From Methanobacteriota archaeon (GTDB lineage: Archaea; Thermoplasmatota; Poseidoniia; Poseidoniales; Poseidoniaceae), in NCBI GenBank assembly GCA_002696315.1, contig NZRR01000010.1:1-53948 (forward strand): DNA of 53,948 nt. Direction: 5' to 3'. The first letter of the stretch is position 1; each line of letters opens with the position of its first letter. Below the pieces are notes generated by a model that did not search any database, was not told the origin of the DNA, and saw nothing but the letters and a program-made list of their open reading frames with translations. Both the position numbers and the translations under genes were made by a program. Below, piece by piece: positions 2,907-53,948 of this stretch.

Positions 2907-3205
2907 TGAGGGAGTGGAAGGACCGCTGACAGGGTTAGACCCTGAGGAAAGTCCCCTCTCCATAGTGTAAGATGACCAGAAATGGAGTCAGGAATGGCTG
3001 GCAATATATTAGAAACGAACAATTTAGGGTGTTAACGATGAATCTGAAAAGAGGAGGTTGCTCTATAGTTGCTGAAACGAATATCCTCATCGGAGCAAGT
3101 CCAAACAATCCCATCAAGGTTACACGCTTAGGGAAGGGTAGGACGCATAGTTGAATGCGGTCATCCGAAAGGTGAACAGAAAGGGGCTTACTCTCCACTC
3201 CCTCA
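2907..3205 (+). ncRNA. rnpB: RNase P RNA (archaeal)
   Basis: Catalytic RNA of ribonuclease P, which removes 5' leaders from tRNA precursors. The ends form a perfect 12-base P1 helix (2907-2918 with 3194-3205). Inside it are the two hallmark conserved blocks: GAGGAAAGTCC at 2944-2954 and ACAGAAAGGGGCTTA at 3176-3190, the pair that forms the P4 helix. The length of about 299 bases fits archaeal RNase P RNA. The short open frames crossing this stretch are chance. The stop codon of the opposing giant gene begins 3 bases after the P1 helix, so the two transcripts converge almost without a spacer. Confidence 0.93.
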
Positions 3206-43033: not shown

Positions 43034-43987
43034 TCACTCTCCAGTAAGTCTTCCAATCAAATCAGATTTTTTACCAGAAACAGGTTTTCCTGCCTCTTTG
43101 AGTAATTCCTTTAATTGTGGAACTGTCATAGACTCATAGTCTATTGATTTCTCTGAATCTTCCTGAGCAGACACAATTCCTTCTTTTTCATCTGAAATTT
43201 CTTCGGAAGAGGATTCTGAAACTTTTTCGCTTATTGATTCCATTGCTTCTGCAGCTTCAAGAATTGAGGATGTTTCTTCTTCACCAGATTCAGCTGCTTC
43301 TTTTCTGGCCTTTAATTCCGCTTCAGCTTTTTGTTCTGCAGCATGAATTTCATCTAAGGTAGGTCCTTCTGAACTTACTACTCCAGTTTTCAGTAACTGA
43401 CTTTTTGCGATTACTGCTGAACGAACTTTCGCAATTGAATTTAATGCCTTTACCATAGTAGTTTCCATATCAGAACCTAATATTGCTTTCTGTAGTGCAG
43501 GATATGTACATGATGATCCAAATGTTGTAATAATTTCAGTAACCGTCCTTCTCATAACCTTCTTCATACTACTTGTAACTCTTCCTTCTGTTACAATTAG
43601 TGGCTTTAATCTAACTAAATAACCATCATTAGTTACTACATCAATCACAGCATCTACTTTACCTCTGTAACGTCTAATTTGTCTTCTAATGTGATCATTT
43701 TGGTGAGCATGCCCCACAAATTCTGTAATTGCATCTTGATTAACGACCTCAACAATTCTAAAATTTAACTTTACATGCATTTTTGTAAAATCTCCATCAA
43801 ATTCTTGCTGAGTAGTTTGGAAAATTCTACCTTCAACGAATTGCTCGTTTTCTCCTATAGTTTCCCCTATTTTCTTATAATGCCAAGGGTTTCTGGGGGC
43901 TCTAATTGAAAAAATTCTTTTCGCTTTCCACTTGTCTCTCTGCTTTCTAGCTAGATTTCGGGATTGTGCACTAGATCTTACAGCCAT
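43034..43987 (-). CDS. rps3ae: 30S ribosomal protein S3Ae with a C-terminal SAP domain
   Basis: Archaeal/eukaryotic small-subunit ribosomal protein eS1 (S3Ae), 317 residues. The ribosomal part (about 1-200) is typical: KWKAKRIFSI, the GHAHQNDHIRRQIRRYRGKVD stretch, and the RRTVTEIITTF segment. After residue 200 comes a low-complexity acidic, serine- and glutamate-rich linker (EEETSSILEAAE), and at 283-316 a SAP-type helix pair (MTVPQLKELLKEAGKPVSGKKS). The extra tail makes it about 110 residues longer than usual. The same SAP motif opens the M28 peptidase in this window. The mtnP gene follows. Confidence 0.93.
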   Translation of the reverse strand: MAVRSSAQSRNLARKQRDKWKAKRIFSIRAPRNPWHYKKIGETIGENEQFVEGRIFQTTQQEFDGDFTKMHVKLNFRIVEVVNQDAITEFVGHAHQNDHIRRQIRRYRGKVDAVIDVVTNDGYLVRLKPLIVTEGRVTSSMKKVMRRTVTEIITTFGSSCTYPALQKAILGSDMETTMVKALNSIAKVRSAVIAKSQLLKTGVVSSEGPTLDEIHAAEQKAEAELKARKEAAESGEEETSSILEAAEAMESISEKVSESSSEEISDEKEGIVSAQEDSEKSIDYESMTVPQLKELLKEAGKPVSGKKSDLIGRLTGE

Positions 43988-45969: not shown

Positions 45970-47007
45970 TTATTCTCTCTTAGTTCTAGACCTTCTTCCT
46001 CTTGCAGTAGATACCGATTTCTTCTTTACTGGTCTTTTCTTTTTAGTTTGACCACTTCTTCCGTCAGAATCTTTTTGTAATGTTCCACCGAATTCTAAAT
46101 TTCCACTCTGTAATAATTTGTCAATCAAAGAATCAGCAATTGACTCATCATCATGTGGTGCTTTTAATTCACTTCTAACAGAATCATTGTGTTCTGAAAC
46201 CCAGGATTTTCGTTCTTTTAATAATGATTTGATTTGATCTTTTACTTCTGTAATCTTTTTCATCAATTCACCAATCTCTTTGTGAATCTCATCGGCTTTC
46301 TTTTTTTCTTCAACAAATGAATTATGATAACGATCTCCTTCAGATTTTAAGAAGTTTCTTTCTTTGAACAGTGAATCTAATTCTTCCGACATCTTTCTAG
46401 CTTCTTTTAATGCATCGACCATTAATTTATGTGACTCATCTGCAACTAATTTTAATTCAGTAATAGCTGACTCAGTATTGGATAAATCAACTTCTAATTT
46501 TGCATTTTCATCAATTAATGGTTCTAAACCTTGAATGTCTTCTTTATGTGATTTTATTTGTTTCAAAATTTTATTTTCTTTATCTAGGGGGTGATATTTT
46601 GTTTCGATTTGTTTTTCTAATTCTGCAATTGTACTACTTAATTTATTAAATTCTGCAGTAATATTTTTTGATTTTCTTTTGTCAATATGACCGCTCTTTG
46701 CTTTTGCAAATAAAAGTCTCAGTTGATTTTGTGCAGTATCCCTACGCGTCCGAAATGAATTTGCTTCTTTTTTCTTAGCCTTGATCTTGTTTAACCCATC
46801 ATCTAATTTTGATTTTAATTCTTTGTACTCTCCCTGGATTGAGTCTCTCTGGTCTGCAAATCTCCTAGCAGATTTATTATGATTGGACCTTTGGTCACGC
46901 ATTCGTCTTATCTTAGACTCCATTGTGTTTAACGCATCTTTAAGATCGTCTTTTTCAGCATCAGGCTGACGCTCATTTAATCCGGCCACAGTAGTGGGTA
47001 CACACAC
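45970..47007 (-). CDS. Coiled-coil protein (COG1340-like), with C-terminal helix-Gly-helix module
   Basis: A 345-residue protein that is almost entirely long coiled coil (about residues 15-290), with heptad patterns rich in Lys and Glu, in the style of archaeal COG1340 coiled-coil proteins. Near residue 296-318 comes a short module LIDKLLQSGNLEF, then a basic tail (KKKRPVKKKS, RGRRSRTKRE). Function is unknown; such proteins are often cytoskeletal or scaffold-like. The start is uncertain: GTG 47007 is the first, a second GTG at 46989 is equally plausible. Its stop directly abuts pdxS. See the grouped finding at 45970-53541. Confidence 0.7.
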   Translation of the reverse strand: MCVPTTVAGLNERQPDAEKDDLKDALNTMESKIRRMRDQRSNHNKSARRFADQRDSIQGEYKELKSKLDDGLNKIKAKKKEANSFRTRRDTAQNQLRLLFAKAKSGHIDKRKSKNITAEFNKLSSTIAELEKQIETKYHPLDKENKILKQIKSHKEDIQGLEPLIDENAKLEVDLSNTESAITELKLVADESHKLMVDALKEARKMSEELDSLFKERNFLKSEGDRYHNSFVEEKKKADEIHKEIGELMKKITEVKDQIKSLLKERKSWVSEHNDSVRSELKAPHDDESIADSLIDKLLQSGNLEFGGTLQKDSDGRSGQTKKKRPVKKKSVSTARGRRSRTKRE

Positions 47008-47028
47008 TGGGATTTGAAACCAACCATT

Positions 47029-48528
47029 TCAAAGCATAGAGAAAGTCCACCGACTTAACCTAATTATTGGAATGATTATTCCAAATAAAAATGCGAACCT
47101 ACTAGTCATTAAACTAAATCTTCTTAACATTGGAGTCCTACTTAATGATATCAAAGTCCTACCATCAATTAGATGCCCATCAGAGTCTTCTAATCTAACA
47201 TTAATTACTAACTCGCCGGTAGTTTTAGATTTGGGGTTCATCCATATCCAAGCAGATGATTCATCTGCAACTGCTAAAATTACTTCTCTCCTTTCAAGAT
47301 CAGATTCCCAAGGCCTACTACCCAATTCCTTCATTGCTTTACCTTGAGGATTTAATTCAATGGAATGTGTGATGATTTCAGGATCTGTGTGGGCAGATTG
47401 AGTCTTCAACAAGACTGTTCTTTTCTTGTGTGTAGCGTTAATTAATTGTACGAACATTGAACCTTTTCCATCAAAAATATCATCTACATCTACATCAAAA
47501 TAATAACCAGACTCTCTAATATTATTCAAATCATCAAGATTTTTTTGTAAAGTTCTGGTCATTAACCTATTAAATGGATTACACGTTTCATGAAGGTGTC
47601 TAATTAATTCAGACCATAATTGAACATCATAAATAATTGAAGGTTCTTTAATCTTATATTCTGATTTTATTTTGTTCATTAAATCAGTAGTAGTCATTCT
47701 TCCCTCGTCATGCAAATAATGAAGTAAAACTATTTTTTCAAAATATCTGTAATTATCTAATTTTACTCTTCTCTTTGTATTAATTTCTTCGATAATTTTC
47801 ACAATTTTAAATCTTAAAAAAGGATCGCAGATTGTTAATAAAATCTCAGTTAATGGATAATTTAGTATTGAGGGATGAAAAGTGGGCTTATATGCACCTA
47901 CAAGTCCCCATTCATCAGATGTATTAAATTCAACATTCGTTCTTTTTATCAAAAAGCCAAAATTAATCAATACACAGGATAAAGAAAATTCTCTCATAAT
48001 CTCTGATATATCACTTAGACTTCCTAAAGAAATTATAATTACTTGTAATAGGAGGGCCAATAATGTTGTCATTGTAGAAAATAATCTTTTATTTATGGCA
48101 TTATTAGCCATTTGAGTAATCTGCTCAAATCCATGAGATTTTTCGATATTATTTCCTGTATCTAAATGAATTAATGCATTATATTTCACAATCATCCTAG
48201 AAATCATAGCTTGTGCAGTATTTGCAGTCAACATTAGAAGCATCGCCAGCAAAAACATGATGCTAAGCCAATCCAGAAATGGAGTCAATTCTAAATCGAA
48301 AACCACGGGACTAAATGCGCTCCACCAATCTGGTGTACGATCCTCTTTCCAAACACCAATTCCAACTACTATAGCTATTAAGGGGGGTAAAACCAGCATT
48401 AAGCTTGCCCCTTTACTAAGTAGTAATCTATCAAATCTAGACAGTAAATCTTCTATAATTCTAAGTATTCTTAATCTCTCAGTAATTTTATCAATATTTA
48501 TTGAGATCTCGTCATTATTCACCGACAA
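47029..48528 (-). CDS. Multi-helix membrane protein with a large soluble region, unknown
   Basis: A protein of about 499 residues not recognised. Four membrane helices in the first 200 residues (LVLPPLIAIVVGIGVW, WLSIMFLLAMLLML, TTLLALLLQVIIISL and a further one) and one at the C-terminus (about 475-495) flank a soluble region of about 270 residues. The soluble region contains a helical winged-helix-like stretch (KIVLLHYLHDEGRMTTTDLMNKI, YDVQLWSELIRHL) and a beta-rich end (WIWMNPKSKTTGELVINVRL). The start is uncertain: the frame opens at TTG 48546 overlapping the upstream stop, but TTG 48528 has GGTG 8 bases ahead. It is co-transcribed with the zinc-ribbon membrane protein. Confidence 0.6.
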   Translation of the reverse strand: MSVNNDEISINIDKITERLRILRIIEDLLSRFDRLLLSKGASLMLVLPPLIAIVVGIGVWKEDRTPDWWSAFSPVVFDLELTPFLDWLSIMFLLAMLLMLTANTAQAMISRMIVKYNALIHLDTGNNIEKSHGFEQITQMANNAINKRLFSTMTTLLALLLQVIIISLGSLSDISEIMREFSLSCVLINFGFLIKRTNVEFNTSDEWGLVGAYKPTFHPSILNYPLTEILLTICDPFLRFKIVKIIEEINTKRRVKLDNYRYFEKIVLLHYLHDEGRMTTTDLMNKIKSEYKIKEPSIIYDVQLWSELIRHLHETCNPFNRLMTRTLQKNLDDLNNIRESGYYFDVDVDDIFDGKGSMFVQLINATHKKRTVLLKTQSAHTDPEIITHSIELNPQGKAMKELGSRPWESDLERREVILAVADESSAWIWMNPKSKTTGELVINVRLEDSDGHLIDGRTLISLSRTPMLRRFSLMTSRFAFLFGIIIPIIRLSRWTFSML

Positions 48529-48542
48529 AATAACCACACCTA

Positions 48543-50021
48543 TCAATCAGCAATTGCATTAAAAATACATTTACATGCTGGACATCTAGCTTTAGCTGGT
48601 CTCTTTTCATAAGGAACTCTCAAAACTTGATCACATTTAGGACACTCTACAATATCATTATCTGAACTTGCAAATAATTCTTTGTCTTCGATTTCTAATT
48701 CCTCTTCAGTTGATTTTTCTTTGGATTCATTCTTTGTACTAAATTGCTCTAAACAAGAAGGACATTTGACTTGGCCTGAATAATCAAATGGAACTTGCAA
48801 TTGTTTAGGACAGGAGGGGCAATCAACTGTTCTTTTTTCGGTTTCAGACTTTTCTTCTACTTTTTTATTTCTTTCACTGTAAGTTCTAGTTTCTGTATTC
48901 TCAGCTTGGTTTTTAGCTGAAACTATTCTAATACTAAAGATAATCAATAAAGCAATTACTAGACCCATTACCATACCCATCCAATTAATCGAAAAATCCG
49001 TATCTTCTGAAACCTCACCAGAATTACTCGATATAACTTCAAGATTAGTTTTAGTCACATATTCATCCATTAACCAAATAATTTCTAAAGTTGTTGTGGA
49101 TATTGACATCCATTCATTAATTCTTAGTTCTATTTGTCTTTCGGAATTTGAATTAATAGCTGGAACATCAATTTCTGCCAATACTCGCTTTTGACCATCT
49201 ACTGCAATTAATCTACCCGAACCAGTCTCAAGTGGACCATTATTTATTAATTCTAACCCGACAGTCACCGTATCTCCTAAAGTTGGAAATTCCGGTGAAG
49301 GACCAGAAATAATTTCTAAAGATAATCCCGATATTTCTGATTCGATATTTTCTTCATCGAAAGCAAAATTCAATGGATTCCAATTTAATGGTTGCAAAAC
49401 GATTTCGACTTTGTAAGTTCCTTTTGGTGCAATACCCATCTCAGTAGTTAATGTTCTTAATCCAGGTTCTAAACTCATATCCATTTCACTTGCTAAAATT
49501 AGACCATCATTCGTTACAAAGTATATCTTGGAAGAAATTAATCGAGATTTGCCTTCAGATAAATTTGCTCCCCAGTTAATAGAATAACCCTCATCATAAT
49601 CATAAGATAAAGAATAAATTTCTGCAAATAAGGACTGTTGCTTAGAAATTATTACCTCAGAAGTCCCAGAAAATAGAACAGAAGTGTTGTTTGAATCAAA
49701 GACAGACCAATTTACAGCAAAAACACCGGAATTTTGTGCTTCAAAAAAAGAGATTAATTCCATACTATTGCCCGAATCAATAATTACATTGGAACTGTTA
49801 GAGGTTTCTCCATTAATTTCTATACTTAAAAATGCAGTAATTAATTCAGAATCACTATTATGAACCAATATTGAAAATTCAATTTCATCACCAACATGCC
49901 AAGGACCATCCCTCAAAATTAAATCGCCAGAGGGAGACACTGAATCTGCAGTATTTATTGGAATAAACGAGGTTAAAAATACAATCAAGACAACAATTGG
50001 AAGTGACCTATTGCTCCTCAT
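48543..50021 (-). CDS. Type I membrane protein with two cytoplasmic zinc ribbons
   Basis: A 492-residue protein. A signal peptide (about 6-24) leads a beta-rich extracellular region of about 320 residues (repeated Ig/CARDB-like strands such as VGLELINNGPLETGSG). One membrane helix is at about 348-370, then a charged linker and two zinc ribbons facing the cytoplasm: the first at Cys401/Cys404 with its partner pair near 420, the second at Cys460/Cys463 with its partner pair near 481. The ribbons (CPSCPKQLQVPFDYSGQ, CPKCDQVLRVPYEKRPA) resemble the MJ0042 or FYDLN type. The outside-sensor plus inside-zinc arrangement suggests signalling or assembly, by inference. It is transcribed with the membrane protein downstream. 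Confidence 0.7.
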   Translation of the reverse strand: MRSNRSLPIVVLIVFLTSFIPINTADSVSPSGDLILRDGPWHVGDEIEFSILVHNSDSELITAFLSIEINGETSNSSNVIIDSGNSMELISFFEAQNSGVFAVNWSVFDSNNTSVLFSGTSEVIISKQQSLFAEIYSLSYDYDEGYSINWGANLSEGKSRLISSKIYFVTNDGLILASEMDMSLEPGLRTLTTEMGIAPKGTYKVEIVLQPLNWNPLNFAFDEENIESEISGLSLEIISGPSPEFPTLGDTVTVGLELINNGPLETGSGRLIAVDGQKRVLAEIDVPAINSNSERQIELRINEWMSISTTTLEIIWLMDEYVTKTNLEVISSNSGEVSEDTDFSINWMGMVMGLVIALLIIFSIRIVSAKNQAENTETRTYSERNKKVEEKSETEKRTVDCPSCPKQLQVPFDYSGQVKCPSCLEQFSTKNESKEKSTEEELEIEDKELFASSDNDIVECPKCDQVLRVPYEKRPAKARCPACKCIFNAIAD

Positions 50022-50118
50022 TCACACAGCGTAATCAATCACTAATTAAGATACATTGCGTTACTTTCAACAATTACTAACATTTATTGAAGAAATCAAA
50101 GTCGAGCGAACGTTAGAG

Positions 50119-50541
50119 ATGGAGCCAAAGACACTGTTACAGTTGAAGCCTGAATTGTTGGCCAAAGCAATTATTCATCGAAGACAACATCTTATGGACC
50201 AATTACCAGATATAATCAAGACTGCAAAAGAAGAAGTCAAAGAGGCTGAAGAAGCGATAAAATACCATGAAGACTTAACATCTGGTAAAGATGGAAATAC
50301 AGTTGGAAATAAAGAGAAAGGTAAAAAATTACGTGAAGAATTTAATTTAGCAATAGGTAGACTAAATAGAGCAGAAAATATTTTCAAAAACTCTGAAGAA
50401 ATTATTTCTTTTTGGGCTGGAAAATTAGAATTCGGATTTGATGAACTCCTAGATGATAGCCTTAGGGTTGAAAATGGAGGGGCTAGTAGTTGGGCTCTGA
50501 GAAAGAAATCTAATAAAAGTGATACAGGTGAAGAAGAATGA
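50119..50541 (+). CDS. Small coiled-coil protein, unknown
   Basis: A 140-residue, mostly helical and charged protein. Helical stretches occur at about 3-60 (ELLAKAIIHRRQHLMDQLP) and 75-115 (KGKKLREEFNLAIGRLNRAE), with a glycine-rich break between them (TSGKDGNTVGN). ATG 50119 is preferred; a TTG at 50056 opens the frame earlier. The following coiled-coil gene overlaps its end as ATGA, so they are translationally coupled and probably form a complex (inference). Confidence 0.6.
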   Translation: MEPKTLLQLKPELLAKAIIHRRQHLMDQLPDIIKTAKEEVKEAEEAIKYHEDLTSGKDGNTVGNKEKGKKLREEFNLAIGRLNRAENIFKNSEEIISFWAGKLEFGFDELLDDSLRVENGGASSWALRKKSNKSDTGEEE

Positions 50542-51449
50542 CCACGGAAACAGAAAAAAAAGATACGAAACTATCTGATTTGAATGTTTCAATTACTAAA
50601 ATTTCACAAAATATTAGTAAGTTATATGATGAAAGAAAGTCATTAAATTTAATGAGTCTAGCAATGAGTAATGATTTAGATAATATTAAGGGGCTACCAG
50701 AAGAACAACAACAGATATTAATTGAAGTTCAGGAAAGACAAAAAGAGGCTAATAAATTAAGAAAGATGAGAGATGAAATAAATTCGAATATTATTCTTCC
50801 AGAACAAGCTATTCTTGAAAATCTATACCTTTACTATTACAGACTAACTGGTGAAGAATCTGATTTGAGGTATCCAACACTAAAAAAAGAAGCTGAGATG
50901 TTCAGTCGGTTTCTCGAATTACAACAGATGTTCACTCAAAAAATTAAAAGTACACAATATCATAATCAATTTCAAGAATTAATGAGTGAACAATTATCTA
51001 CTATTGATAAACTGAATGAAATTAGGAAAAAAAGTGGTAATTCCAAAATCTCTATTTCGAATAAAATTGATAATAAAAGCCCAATAGGGTTTAAGATCTT
51101 TAAAATCAATAAGAAAATTTCATCTAATAAGAGGAAAATTGAACAATTAAAAAAAGAAAAATCCGCCTTAGAATCAAAGCTAGGAATTAAAGGAAGAAGG
51201 AAGAAAAAGTACAAAGTTCCAGACTTGAGCTCAATTCAAGAACGTATTTCAGAAGGTGGCAGCCTATCTCTAGATGATTTGGGAGCATTACTTAAACATG
51301 GAAAAGGCATTGAAGAAATTGAAAAGACAGTGCAAAAATCAAAAAATGCAAAAAAACAAGTTAAAAATTCGCCAAAAAGAAGAATTCAAACAAGTAGAGG
51401 AAGAAGAAGAGCTGGACCCAGAGATACTTCCCTAAAAAATGATAGATGA
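50538..51449 (+). CDS. Coiled-coil protein with C-terminal helix-Gly-helix module and basic tail
   Basis: A 303-residue helical protein with two coiled-coil stretches (about 10-90 and 180-220). A module at about 230-255 (SSIQERISEGGSLSLDDLGALLKHG) resembles the C-terminal modules of the coiled-coil proteins at 45970 and 52675, and the extreme C-terminus is basic (KRRIQTSRGRRRAGPRD), as in the 45970 protein. The start overlaps the previous gene by 4 bases (ATGA). Function unknown; a scaffold or cytoskeleton-like role is possible. Confidence 0.6.
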   Translation: MTTETEKKDTKLSDLNVSITKISQNISKLYDERKSLNLMSLAMSNDLDNIKGLPEEQQQILIEVQERQKEANKLRKMRDEINSNIILPEQAILENLYLYYYRLTGEESDLRYPTLKKEAEMFSRFLELQQMFTQKIKSTQYHNQFQELMSEQLSTIDKLNEIRKKSGNSKISISNKIDNKSPIGFKIFKINKKISSNKRKIEQLKKEKSALESKLGIKGRRKKKYKVPDLSSIQERISEGGSLSLDDLGALLKHGKGIEEIEKTVQKSKNAKKQVKNSPKRRIQTSRGRRRAGPRDTSLKNDR

Positions 51450-51498
51450 CTCAATTTTATACGCAATCTCTTTTCACTAGTTATTTCACAGAATACAC

Positions 51499-51843
51499 AT
51501 GATTGACGATTTGTTAGAAAAAATTTCCAAGAATAATGATGTTGAATCATGTGGTATTTTTGACTCAAAAGGATTACTAATAGTTTCAAGTGGCAATAGA
51601 ACAAATCTAGATAAGATTTCAAATTCAATGCGTAGAATAATTGATGAAAATACTAAACAATTTCTATCAGTCGGAATTGAGCCAATTAATTGTATTACAT
51701 TAATCGGCGAAAATGGAATAAGTTTATTTTGGCCGTTAAAAAATTACTCGTCATTGGCATTAAAAGTTAGACATAATACAAATTTAGGAAAGATTAGGAA
51801 AGAAGTTAATGATTTAATCCCTAGAATTATTGATTTAATTTAA
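51499..51843 (+). CDS. Roadblock/LC7 domain protein
   Basis: A 114-residue single-domain protein of the Roadblock/LC7 fold, which regulates small GTPases (MglB type) or other NTPases in bacteria and archaea. The pattern fits: a first helix DDLLEKISKNND, strand-turn-strand ESCGIFDSKGLLIVSSG, a helix (SNSMRRIIDENTKQF), and two more strands (INCITLIGENGISLFWPL) with SSLALKVRHNTN. No small GTPase is next to it, but a KaiC-like ATPase lies immediately downstream on the other strand, and their stops overlap by 4 bases. Confidence 0.8.
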   Translation: MIDDLLEKISKNNDVESCGIFDSKGLLIVSSGNRTNLDKISNSMRRIIDENTKQFLSVGIEPINCITLIGENGISLFWPLKNYSSLALKVRHNTNLGKIRKEVNDLIPRIIDLI

Positions 51844-52523
51844 TCGAATAATGGACCAAGAAGAACAGGTCCATTAGGACCTACATCTATTGCTTGTTTT
51901 TCCATAGTATGTCTTACATGTCTCATTTTTTCTAATTGGAAAGTTCGGACTAATTTACCATTTCTTCTATCTAAACCCATTGAAATAATTCCATCTGCTA
52001 AGAAACCCTCATTTCCATCTAGTTCGGCAAATTCACCAACCTGTCTTTCAGTTAGACAAATACACTTTAAATTTTGAGATCTAATGAAATCAAAGAAATT
52101 GAACATTGTTCTTCTCATTTTTTCATCTACATTAGTTAAACTGTAAATAGCACCGAGAGAATCAAGAACAAAGGTGGTAAATTGATCTCCTCTTTCTCTT
52201 TTGAAATGTTCAATCATTCTTCTCGTAAATTTTAGATAGTCCATTGCATCATTATCTCTTCTTAATTCAGTAAAATCGGTAATTTGCAAATTCTGTGGTA
52301 AAGATAAGCCAAGAGAACTAGCACCACGCATCAATGAATCTACAGTTTCTTCAATAGTGCAGTAAAGACCAAATTCTCCTGTTTGTCTCAAATAGTTAGA
52401 GACAATAGTCAGTGCAGTTCCGGTTTTTAACGCACCTGGTGGTCCTGTTATCAAACTAATATATGGTGGTTGTACATCATTAAACATTACGCGCTCAATA
52501 CCAGGAAGATTTCCTAAAAACAT
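51840..52523 (-). CDS. KaiC-like RecA-superfamily ATPase
   Basis: A 227-residue RecA-fold protein of the KaiC/RadA-like group. Walker A is TGPPGALKTGT at residues 26-36, where Leu32 stands in place of the last glycine of GxxxxGK[ST]; Glu58-Glu59 match the paired catalytic glutamates of KaiC; Walker B ends in Asp121 (FVLDSLGAI). ICLTERQ and DGIISMGL lie in the usual C-terminal half. KaiC-like proteins without a clock can act in motility (ArlH), signal integration or gas-vesicle regulation. No other archaellum gene is present here. It is divergent from the coiled-coil gene at 52675 and convergent with the Roadblock gene. Confidence 0.82.
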   Translation of the reverse strand: MFLGNLPGIERVMFNDVQPPYISLITGPPGALKTGTALTIVSNYLRQTGEFGLYCTIEETVDSLMRGASSLGLSLPQNLQITDFTELRRDNDAMDYLKFTRRMIEHFKRERGDQFTTFVLDSLGAIYSLTNVDEKMRRTMFNFFDFIRSQNLKCICLTERQVGEFAELDGNEGFLADGIISMGLDRRNGKLVRTFQLEKMRHVRHTMEKQAIDVGPNGPVLLGPLFD

Positions 52524-52674
52524 CTCATCACTGAATCTTGCTAAAACTTTTCACACTTAATCCTCTCGCAATAATTATACTTTTTAGGCAGATAAACTGA
52601 GTTGATAGAATCAATGCGGTTATATGGAACCTTCCAATCCCAATGCCGTTACAGAACAAGGAGTTGGCTAACAA

Positions 52675-53541
52675 ATGAACGAACTAAAAAAAGAACTTGA
52701 AGTAAGGAGAGCGGCTATGGATACTAAAGCTACCGACTTTCGCATAAAAAGAGATGAATGGAATTCGAAAACTAGAGAATTCCAACAAACAAGAAATACA
52801 CTAAATTTGGCAGTTCGTGAATTAATTCAAGAAGTCAAAAAACAACGTACAATCAGGGACGCTGAAAATGAAAGAGTTAGGGAAATGAAAAGAGTCAGAG
52901 ACGAGTGCAACAAAATGGTTCGAGATGCTAAAAAAGAAATCGAAGGTAGTCAACCTCTTGAAGAGAAAAAGAAAATGCATAAAAATCGGAAACAACTTGA
53001 TCAATATAAAAGAGAATTAAATAGATTAGAAAGAGAAATTGACGAAGGAAAACATAGAGGCAAAAAAGAAGCCGAGGCAATGAAAAGAGCTAAATTCCTA
53101 ACTCAGCAAATCAGACAACATGTACCTGTAAAAATAAAAGTCGAAGCCACGCCAGAAGCACAAGCTGCCTATGATAAGGCTCTTGAAGAGCAAGAGAAAG
53201 CTCACCAAAATGTTACTGAAGCGGCATCTCAAGCTCAAGCAGCTCACGAATTAATGCTTGAATGGAATAGCGAAGTTGATACTAGAAGAGCAAAAGCAGA
53301 AGAAGCTCATAAAACATTAAGAAATACAAAGAAAGAAGCAGATTTAGCTCATCACAGATACATAGTTGCATTAAGATGCTTACATAGTATCAATAATATT
53401 TTCAAAACAATGCAATCAGAAAGACGCGATAAAACTACAACTAGTGAGCCTCAATTAAGTGTTGATAATTTAATGGGTAAATTACTTTCTGGTGACACAT
53501 TAACAACAGAAGAATTGATGCAACTTCAAAGTATGGAATGA
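52675..53541 (+). CDS. Coiled-coil protein (COG1340-like) with C-terminal module
   Basis: A 288-residue, nearly all-helical protein, Lys/Glu/Arg-rich heptads from about 1 to 250 in two antiparallel-looking arms separated near 145-150 (QHVPVKIKVEATPEAQA). The last 25 residues form the shared module: SVDNLMGKLLSGDTLTTEELMQL. The ATG has AAGGAG about 10 bases upstream. The arrangement resembles archaeal COG1340 proteins. Function unknown. purP follows after 12 bases, so the two may be co-transcribed. Confidence 0.7.
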   Translation: MNELKKELEVRRAAMDTKATDFRIKRDEWNSKTREFQQTRNTLNLAVRELIQEVKKQRTIRDAENERVREMKRVRDECNKMVRDAKKEIEGSQPLEEKKKMHKNRKQLDQYKRELNRLEREIDEGKHRGKKEAEAMKRAKFLTQQIRQHVPVKIKVEATPEAQAAYDKALEEQEKAHQNVTEAASQAQAAHELMLEWNSEVDTRRAKAEEAHKTLRNTKKEADLAHHRYIVALRCLHSINNIFKTMQSERRDKTTTSEPQLSVDNLMGKLLSGDTLTTEELMQLQSME

Positions 53542-53553
53542 CGGTGAGAAATT

Positions 53554-53948
53554 ATGCTCGATCGTGAGAACATGAAAGAAATTTTAGAGGATTACGATCC
53601 ATTAAAATTGCGAATTGGGATGGTTGCAAGTCATTCCGCGCTGGATATTTGTGATGGTGCGATTGAGGAGGGTTTTCCAACTGTAGCATACGCACAAAAA
53701 GGTCGAGAGAAAACATATTCTCAATATTTCAAAACATCTAGAAGTAAATCAGGAAGAGTATCTAGAGGAATGGTTGATAAAACAATAGCATTAGATAAAT
53801 TTAGTGATATTCTTGCCCCTGATTTCCAACAACAAATGAGAGATAGAAATGTTGTATTTATTCCAAATAGATCTTTTACATCTTATTGCAGCATGACTGA
53901 AATTGAGAATGATTTCAAAGTACCATTATTCGGTAGCAGGAATATGCT
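53554..53948 (+). CDS. purP: PurP, FAICAR synthetase (5' part only)
   Basis: Start of the archaeal formate-dependent 5-formaminoimidazole-4-carboxamide ribonucleotide synthetase of purine synthesis. The visible 131 codons begin LKLRIGMVASHSALDICDGA and IEEGFPTVAYAQKGREKTY, the N-terminal signature of PurP (DUF1246-type); the ATP-grasp part lies beyond the window. GGTG sits 7 bases before the ATG. The gene is cut by the right edge, not broken. Confidence 0.85.
   Translation, partial: MLDRENMKEILEDYDPLKLRIGMVASHSALDICDGAIEEGFPTVAYAQKGREKTYSQYFKTSRSKSGRVSRGMVDKTIALDKFSDILAPDFQQQMRDRNVVFIPNRSFTSYCSMTEIENDFKVPLFGSRNM

Follow-up and report, generated by a model that had tools for sequence, protein, structure and literature searches.

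An eight-gene group that we designate A to H, located at positions 45970-53541 of a 53,948-nucleotide stretch of Poseidoniaceae DNA (contig NZRR01000010.1; this stretch at its full length is hereafter called the window), forms a conserved neighbourhood in which, in most other genera of the family, coiled-coil protein E is fused to a terminal uridylyltransferase (TUTase) that is apparently intact, as every catalytic and UTP-selecting residue checked in its sequence is present. In the window, E (50538-51449, + strand) is a 303-residue coiled coil with a basic, RG-containing tail, and it corresponds to the C-terminal, coiled-coil half of the relatives' fusion protein. The E proteins of most other genera are ~670-757 residues long, and their first ~390 residues form a terminal nucleotidyltransferase of the Cid1/TUT type. 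This module matches Pfam PF22600 (E = 1.9e-28) and the PAP_assoc family PF03828 (2.4e-15 and 3.5e-7, above the cut-off); a single-sequence phmmer search retrieves URT1 (7.9e-34), and in a profile search the best match is TUT4 (7e-82), with GLD2 at 5e-50, canonical poly(A) polymerase at only ~1e-5, and further matches to TUT7, URT1, Cid1 and CutA. The catalytic GS, the three aspartates (DxD...D), the nucleotide-binding lysine, the S-Y and the EDP are invariant in 80 species, with the exception of a single ambiguous residue. Of the 79 sequences scored, 78 have the histidine that gives Cid1 its selectivity for UTP (His336; PMC7498324, PMC7470959). As judged by these features, the relatives' enzyme is a newly seen form of the Cid1/TUT family. 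It resembles the eukaryotic terminal uridylyltransferases Cid1, TUT4-TUT7 and URT1 in its palm, PAP-associated domain, GS-DxD-D set and UTP-selecting histidine, but differs from them in its archaeal lineage, its fusion to a basic-tailed, DUF7121-like coiled coil, its position in a cluster that encodes membrane proteins, and its absence from the window's own genus.

Of 94 Poseidoniaceae genomes, 60 carry the TUTase domain, each as a single copy within the cluster; elsewhere in a 293-genome sample of the phylum there are only weak matches that resemble other nucleotidyltransferases, and neither the window's genome (G000) nor its genus yields a PF22600 match. Named carriers include Candidatus Poseidonia alphae, the complete marine group II (MG-II) chromosome CM001443.1 and single-cell genomes. 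Contamination of assemblies was considered as a source of the domain and rejected, because it is fused in frame to an archaeal coiled coil in the contigs of ~100 species, in the complete chromosome and in the single-cell genomes. A viral origin was likewise set aside, as no viral copy was confirmed among 2.9 million viral contigs. One contig filed under a Rhodobiaceae metagenome-assembled genome (CALDQY010000113.1, L101) bears a Poseidoniaceae TUTase and is probably mis-binned.

The distribution of the enzyme was compared with a tree built from a concatenation of seven proteins, with the sister family as outgroup. In this tree the window's genus (g1) is basal in the family on a long branch, and is followed by g6, g2 and g5 and then by an enzyme-bearing crown. 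In g6, which has the same cluster order, E (L014:11151-13151) keeps the whole TUTase module (profile E = 5.8e-42) and has lost the catalytic aspartates, so its sequence marks it as a pseudo-enzyme, a catalytically dead copy. The module is missing from g2 and g5, and in g2 a linker of simple KGKSQS repeats (L009:7774-9084) occupies the place of E's TUTase part. At least nine g9 genomes are also without the enzyme, their E proteins having ~260-310 residues that match the coiled-coil half. The coiled coil is thus what stays constant in E, and the enzyme is a module that may or may not be present. The window's genus either lost the TUTase domain or branched off before it was gained, and its long branch may be misplaced in the tree. 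The order of scores against eukaryotic families suggests that the domain was transferred from a eukaryote. In a fuller scenario, one archaeal lineage would have captured a eukaryote-type TUTase and fused it to a coiled-coil subunit of a membrane-anchored RNA/ribosome scaffold, giving template-independent RNA 3'-uridylation at the membrane, and the enzyme would later have decayed or been lost repeatedly, so that the window shows the scaffold alone; we consider this course of events possible, although we lean against it. A bacterial RNase R-like RNB exonuclease was observed in crown genera (L145-L150) and in no genome of g1, g2, g5, g6 or g8. We claim no link between this exonuclease and the reading of U-tails: it is RNase R-like and not Dis3L2-like, it is missing from g8 and most of g10, and it is present in TUTase-negative g9 (counts 41/19/13/21).

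The conservation of the cluster was assessed in 20 loci from the window's family (Poseidoniaceae, marine group II), which cover all 11 genera sampled, and in 8 loci from the sister family. All 11 genera share the arrangement A-B-(DtxR)-C <> D-E-(GNAT)-F-(G)-H-purP wherever a contig spans the locus, and a core of A, B, C, D, E and H recurs in the sister family, where A, C, E and H occur in 8/8 loci and B and D in 7/8 each (one B and one D were not found by the simple open reading frame caller); five of these eight have none of GNAT, F and G. The genes thus stay together in both families of the order, a point on which the preliminary description had made its proposal of an undescribed system depend, and the proposal stands in the sense of a conserved, undescribed neighbourhood. 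Its further suggestion that the system is specific to marine Thermoplasmatota applies to the whole cluster and not to its parts, as A-type and H-type coiled coils occur phylum-wide (149/194 and 162/194 genomes, respectively) and DUF7121 is also found in Haloferax and Sulfolobus. Searches of the open-access literature, which excludes subscription journals, turned up no description of either an archaeal TUTase or this cluster. Elsewhere the cluster usually includes genes for a DtxR-type regulator and a GNAT acetyltransferase and, past A, one for a sugar-nucleotidyltransferase; the locus in the window's genus has none of the three. DtxR was rejected as an essential member; its orthologue in the window's genome has relocated to G000:C5:131094-131696. 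The start of purP (53554-53946, + strand), which encodes a purine enzyme, is a steady downstream neighbour of H across the family and was left outside the proposed system.

Four of the eight proteins are helical or coiled-coil, in keeping with the preliminary description. H (52675-53541, + strand) is a 288-residue protein that exceeds the Pfam gathering cut-off for DUF7121 (PF23435; 56 vs 29 bits), and AlphaFold models it as a long antiparallel hairpin, with a predicted local distance difference test (pLDDT) score of 84.6. A (45970-47007, - strand; 345 residues) scores 20 bits against the same family, below the cut-off, and D (50119-50541, + strand) and E have no match to it. Profile-profile comparison with hhalign nevertheless aligns A with H (E = 7e-11) and D with H (E = 3.7e-9), so that A, D and H are, as far as profiles can tell, homologous coiled coils that form hairpins of the archaeal DUF7121 type, a COG1340-like family. 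E is tied to them by a common C-terminal motif, G-x-x-L-S-x-x-(D/E)-L, which in H reads L-S-T-E-E-L. Across orthologues the last 45 residues carry a net charge of +7 to +12 in A (+11 in the window) and +7 to +14 in E, and about -1, near neutral, in H. D is a ~140-residue helical protein in the window, and in most relatives it is 260-310 residues long. Profile searches found no solved relatives of H, and a fold search with its model returned generic coiled coils only, with no match at E < 0.001. Outside the order, the neighbours of H in five Thermoplasmatota families (f7, f17, f30, f37 and f38) are TrmY and the signal-recognition GTPase SRP54; in f16 they are MBF1, Sua5 and a gene resembling that for methionine aminopeptidase. 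The DUF7121 loci adjoining SRP54-TrmY (L039, L043, L044, L127, L133-L135, L139 and L143) often have purB near. H shares its hairpin and C-terminal motif with the DUF7121 proteins that adjoin SRP54; however, those elsewhere are single and adjoin SRP54 or MBF1, whereas here two membrane proteins accompany as many as four coiled coils that are related or share the motif.

The two membrane proteins are present as the preliminary description had them, a multi-helix protein (B) and a type I protein with two cytoplasmic zinc ribbons (C). B (47029-48546, - strand) is polytopic and comprises N-terminal transmembrane helices, a helical part, an Ig-like sandwich and a C-terminal transmembrane segment; it is kept across the order, its predicted model has a pLDDT of 82.9 and a predicted template modelling score of 0.76, and a fold search with this model matched only Ig-like domains. 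C (48543-50021, - strand) has 492 residues in the window and ~730-950 in other genera. Its sequence and hydropathy indicate a signal peptide (residues 4-28), a CARDB/Ig-like exterior and one transmembrane helix (~342-372), followed by two CPxC...CPxC ribbons.

The remaining two genes encode candidate nucleotide-dependent components, and both family assignments made in the preliminary description are borne out. F (51499-51843, + strand) scores below the Pfam Robl_LC7 cut-off (14.8 vs 23 bits), but its assignment to the Roadblock/LC7 fold holds because a profile of 14 orthologues matches solved Roadblock/MglB structures (7f8m, 2.2e-7; MglB, 8e-5). G (51840-52523, - strand) is a single-domain KaiC-like ATPase that passes the PF06745 cut-off (E = 1.5e-21; 77.3 vs 26.6 bits). 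Its catalytic EE is invariant; the canonical Walker A GxxxxGK[ST] is missing, and in its place is a variant P-loop, GPPGxxK[T/S], in which the glycine before the lysine is replaced. G is the group's most conserved protein, with 94-99% identity within the genus, far above its neighbours, and a ratio of nonsynonymous to synonymous substitution rates (dN/dS) of 0.013-0.03. Despite this identity, G is accessory, since its orthologue is missing from five of the 11 genera (g3 and g8-g11), as well as from some g4. F is mostly retained where G is missing, and the pairing of Roadblock and KaiC proteins that had been envisaged is therefore not obligatory.

Taking these observations together, we tentatively propose that the cluster is a Poseidoniales-specific, membrane-anchored coiled-coil assembly that would work on RNA or translating ribosomes and that in relatives includes an optional RNA-uridylating module; we regard this as a serious possibility rather than an expectation. 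B and C would tether a bundle made up of A, D, E and H to the membrane, RNA or ribosomes would be bound by the zinc ribbons and basic tails, and F, with G where present, would switch assembly or activity by nucleotide state. The relatives' E enzyme would add uridines to the 3' ends of the RNAs bound there and so mark them for processing or decay, and the window's genus would have the scaffold but no enzyme. The SRP54 and MBF1 neighbours of H, the basic tails and the TUTase fusion favour a role linked to RNA or ribosomes. Several observations weigh on the other side. The neighbourhood of H with SRP54 or MBF1 lies outside the order, and the Poseidoniales H adjoins purP; the window's own E is without the nucleotidyltransferase, so the enzyme cannot explain the window's genus; C's Ig-like exterior and the sandwich at the C-terminal end of B have no relation to RNA; and the sugar-nucleotidyltransferase gene that adjoins A in most genera points to the cell envelope.

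This last gene is central to an account in which the cluster would be an envelope-assembly scaffold, with B and C displaying Ig/CARDB-like domains outside, the coiled coils organising inside, and the sugar-1-phosphate nucleotidyltransferase feeding glycosylation. The NTP_transferase gene (1e-43) adjoins A in 13 fetched family loci and also in a class relative (f3, L041), and a large CARDB-containing membrane protein follows A in f16. However, neither the window's locus nor the f2 loci have the sugar enzyme, and the fusion of the TUTase to E, the basic tails and the zinc ribbons on the cytoplasmic side are left unaccounted for, and we consider an envelope scaffold unlikely, if worth keeping in view. 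It is improbable that the genes are unrelated and held together merely by general microsynteny in a slowly rearranging order. The eS1, y, fdx, pdxS and purP genes are also often nearby, as such an explanation would have it, but neighbours of this type have moved, flipped or vanished in several genera while the A-H core stayed intact. Specifically, the flanking block eS1-y-fdx-pdxS switches side or orientation or drops out in L009, L010, L013, L014, L017 and L022, which serves as a control against plain microsynteny, and three of the cluster's members are homologous coiled coils.

We likewise weighed two further readings. A chromosome-organising function related to SMC/ASRP proteins is very improbable: although A weakly matches an archaeal SMC-related protein model (7e-8, cut-off not met) and the model of H resembles SMC arms, such matches are usual for any coiled coil, the fold search gave H no significant match, A, D, E and H carry no ATPase head, and neither the membrane partners nor the TUTase fusion is explained. 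The preliminary description's idea of a cytoskeleton-like system, or one for motility or polarity, in which Roadblock and an ATPase form the switch, has in its favour that F is a true Roadblock protein with MglB among its structural matches, and that the coiled coils are long. The MglA/MglB polarity switch is similar in this one respect, the profile resemblance of F to MglB, and differs in that no MglA GTPase accompanies F here. No MglA or other Ras-like GTPase, filament protein or archaellum gene was recognised in the cluster of any genus examined (20 family and 8 sister-family loci; not every flanking open reading frame was Pfam-scanned), and KaiC is missing in five genera, leaving motility or polarity most improbable. 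As an apparently intact uridylyltransferase, like those of animals and plants, is present in the cluster of most relatives, a membrane scaffold linked to RNA or translation is more likely than a motility system. A defence system was rejected as well, PADLOC having given only weak coiled-coil and zinc-ribbon matches.

The RNA-linked scaffold that we favour would have analogues in eukaryotes. Yeast Bfr1 and mammalian p180 (for the latter, PMC3362647) are coiled-coil factors of the endoplasmic reticulum that bind mRNA or ribosomes, and the archaeal cluster, as proposed, would share with them, purely by analogy, the combination of coiled coils, membrane linkage and association with RNA or ribosomes.

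Uridylation of RNA 3' ends by Cid1/TUT enzymes is a process known from eukaryotes. The tails known on archaeal RNAs are A-rich and are synthesised by the exosome (PMC4227792). If active, the TUTase would extend uridylation chemistry to archaea, in one of the most abundant archaeal groups of the surface ocean, and would offer a case in which capture between domains can be tested. The natural series within one conserved cluster, in which the enzyme is intact, dead or missing, would also provide a route to the role of the unstudied, archaea-wide DUF7121 family.

All eight genes claimed by the preliminary description were found as open reading frames at the stated positions of the window, and dN/dS values against congeners of 0.013-0.28, indicative of purifying selection and far under 1 in each case, show them to be real coding genes. 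Two of its details are corrected. The genes are not a single operon, as A-B-C lie on the - strand, D-E-F on the +, G on the - and H on the +. The listed reading frame of D begins at a TTG (50056), and the conserved start is the ATG at 50119, giving ~140 rather than 161 residues; E overlaps D via an ATGA. Elsewhere in the window, ribosomal protein eS1 (43034-43987) has, by eye, a long acidic C-terminal extension with a SAP-like stretch at its end, and an archaeal RNase P RNA lies at 2910-3202 (221 bits).

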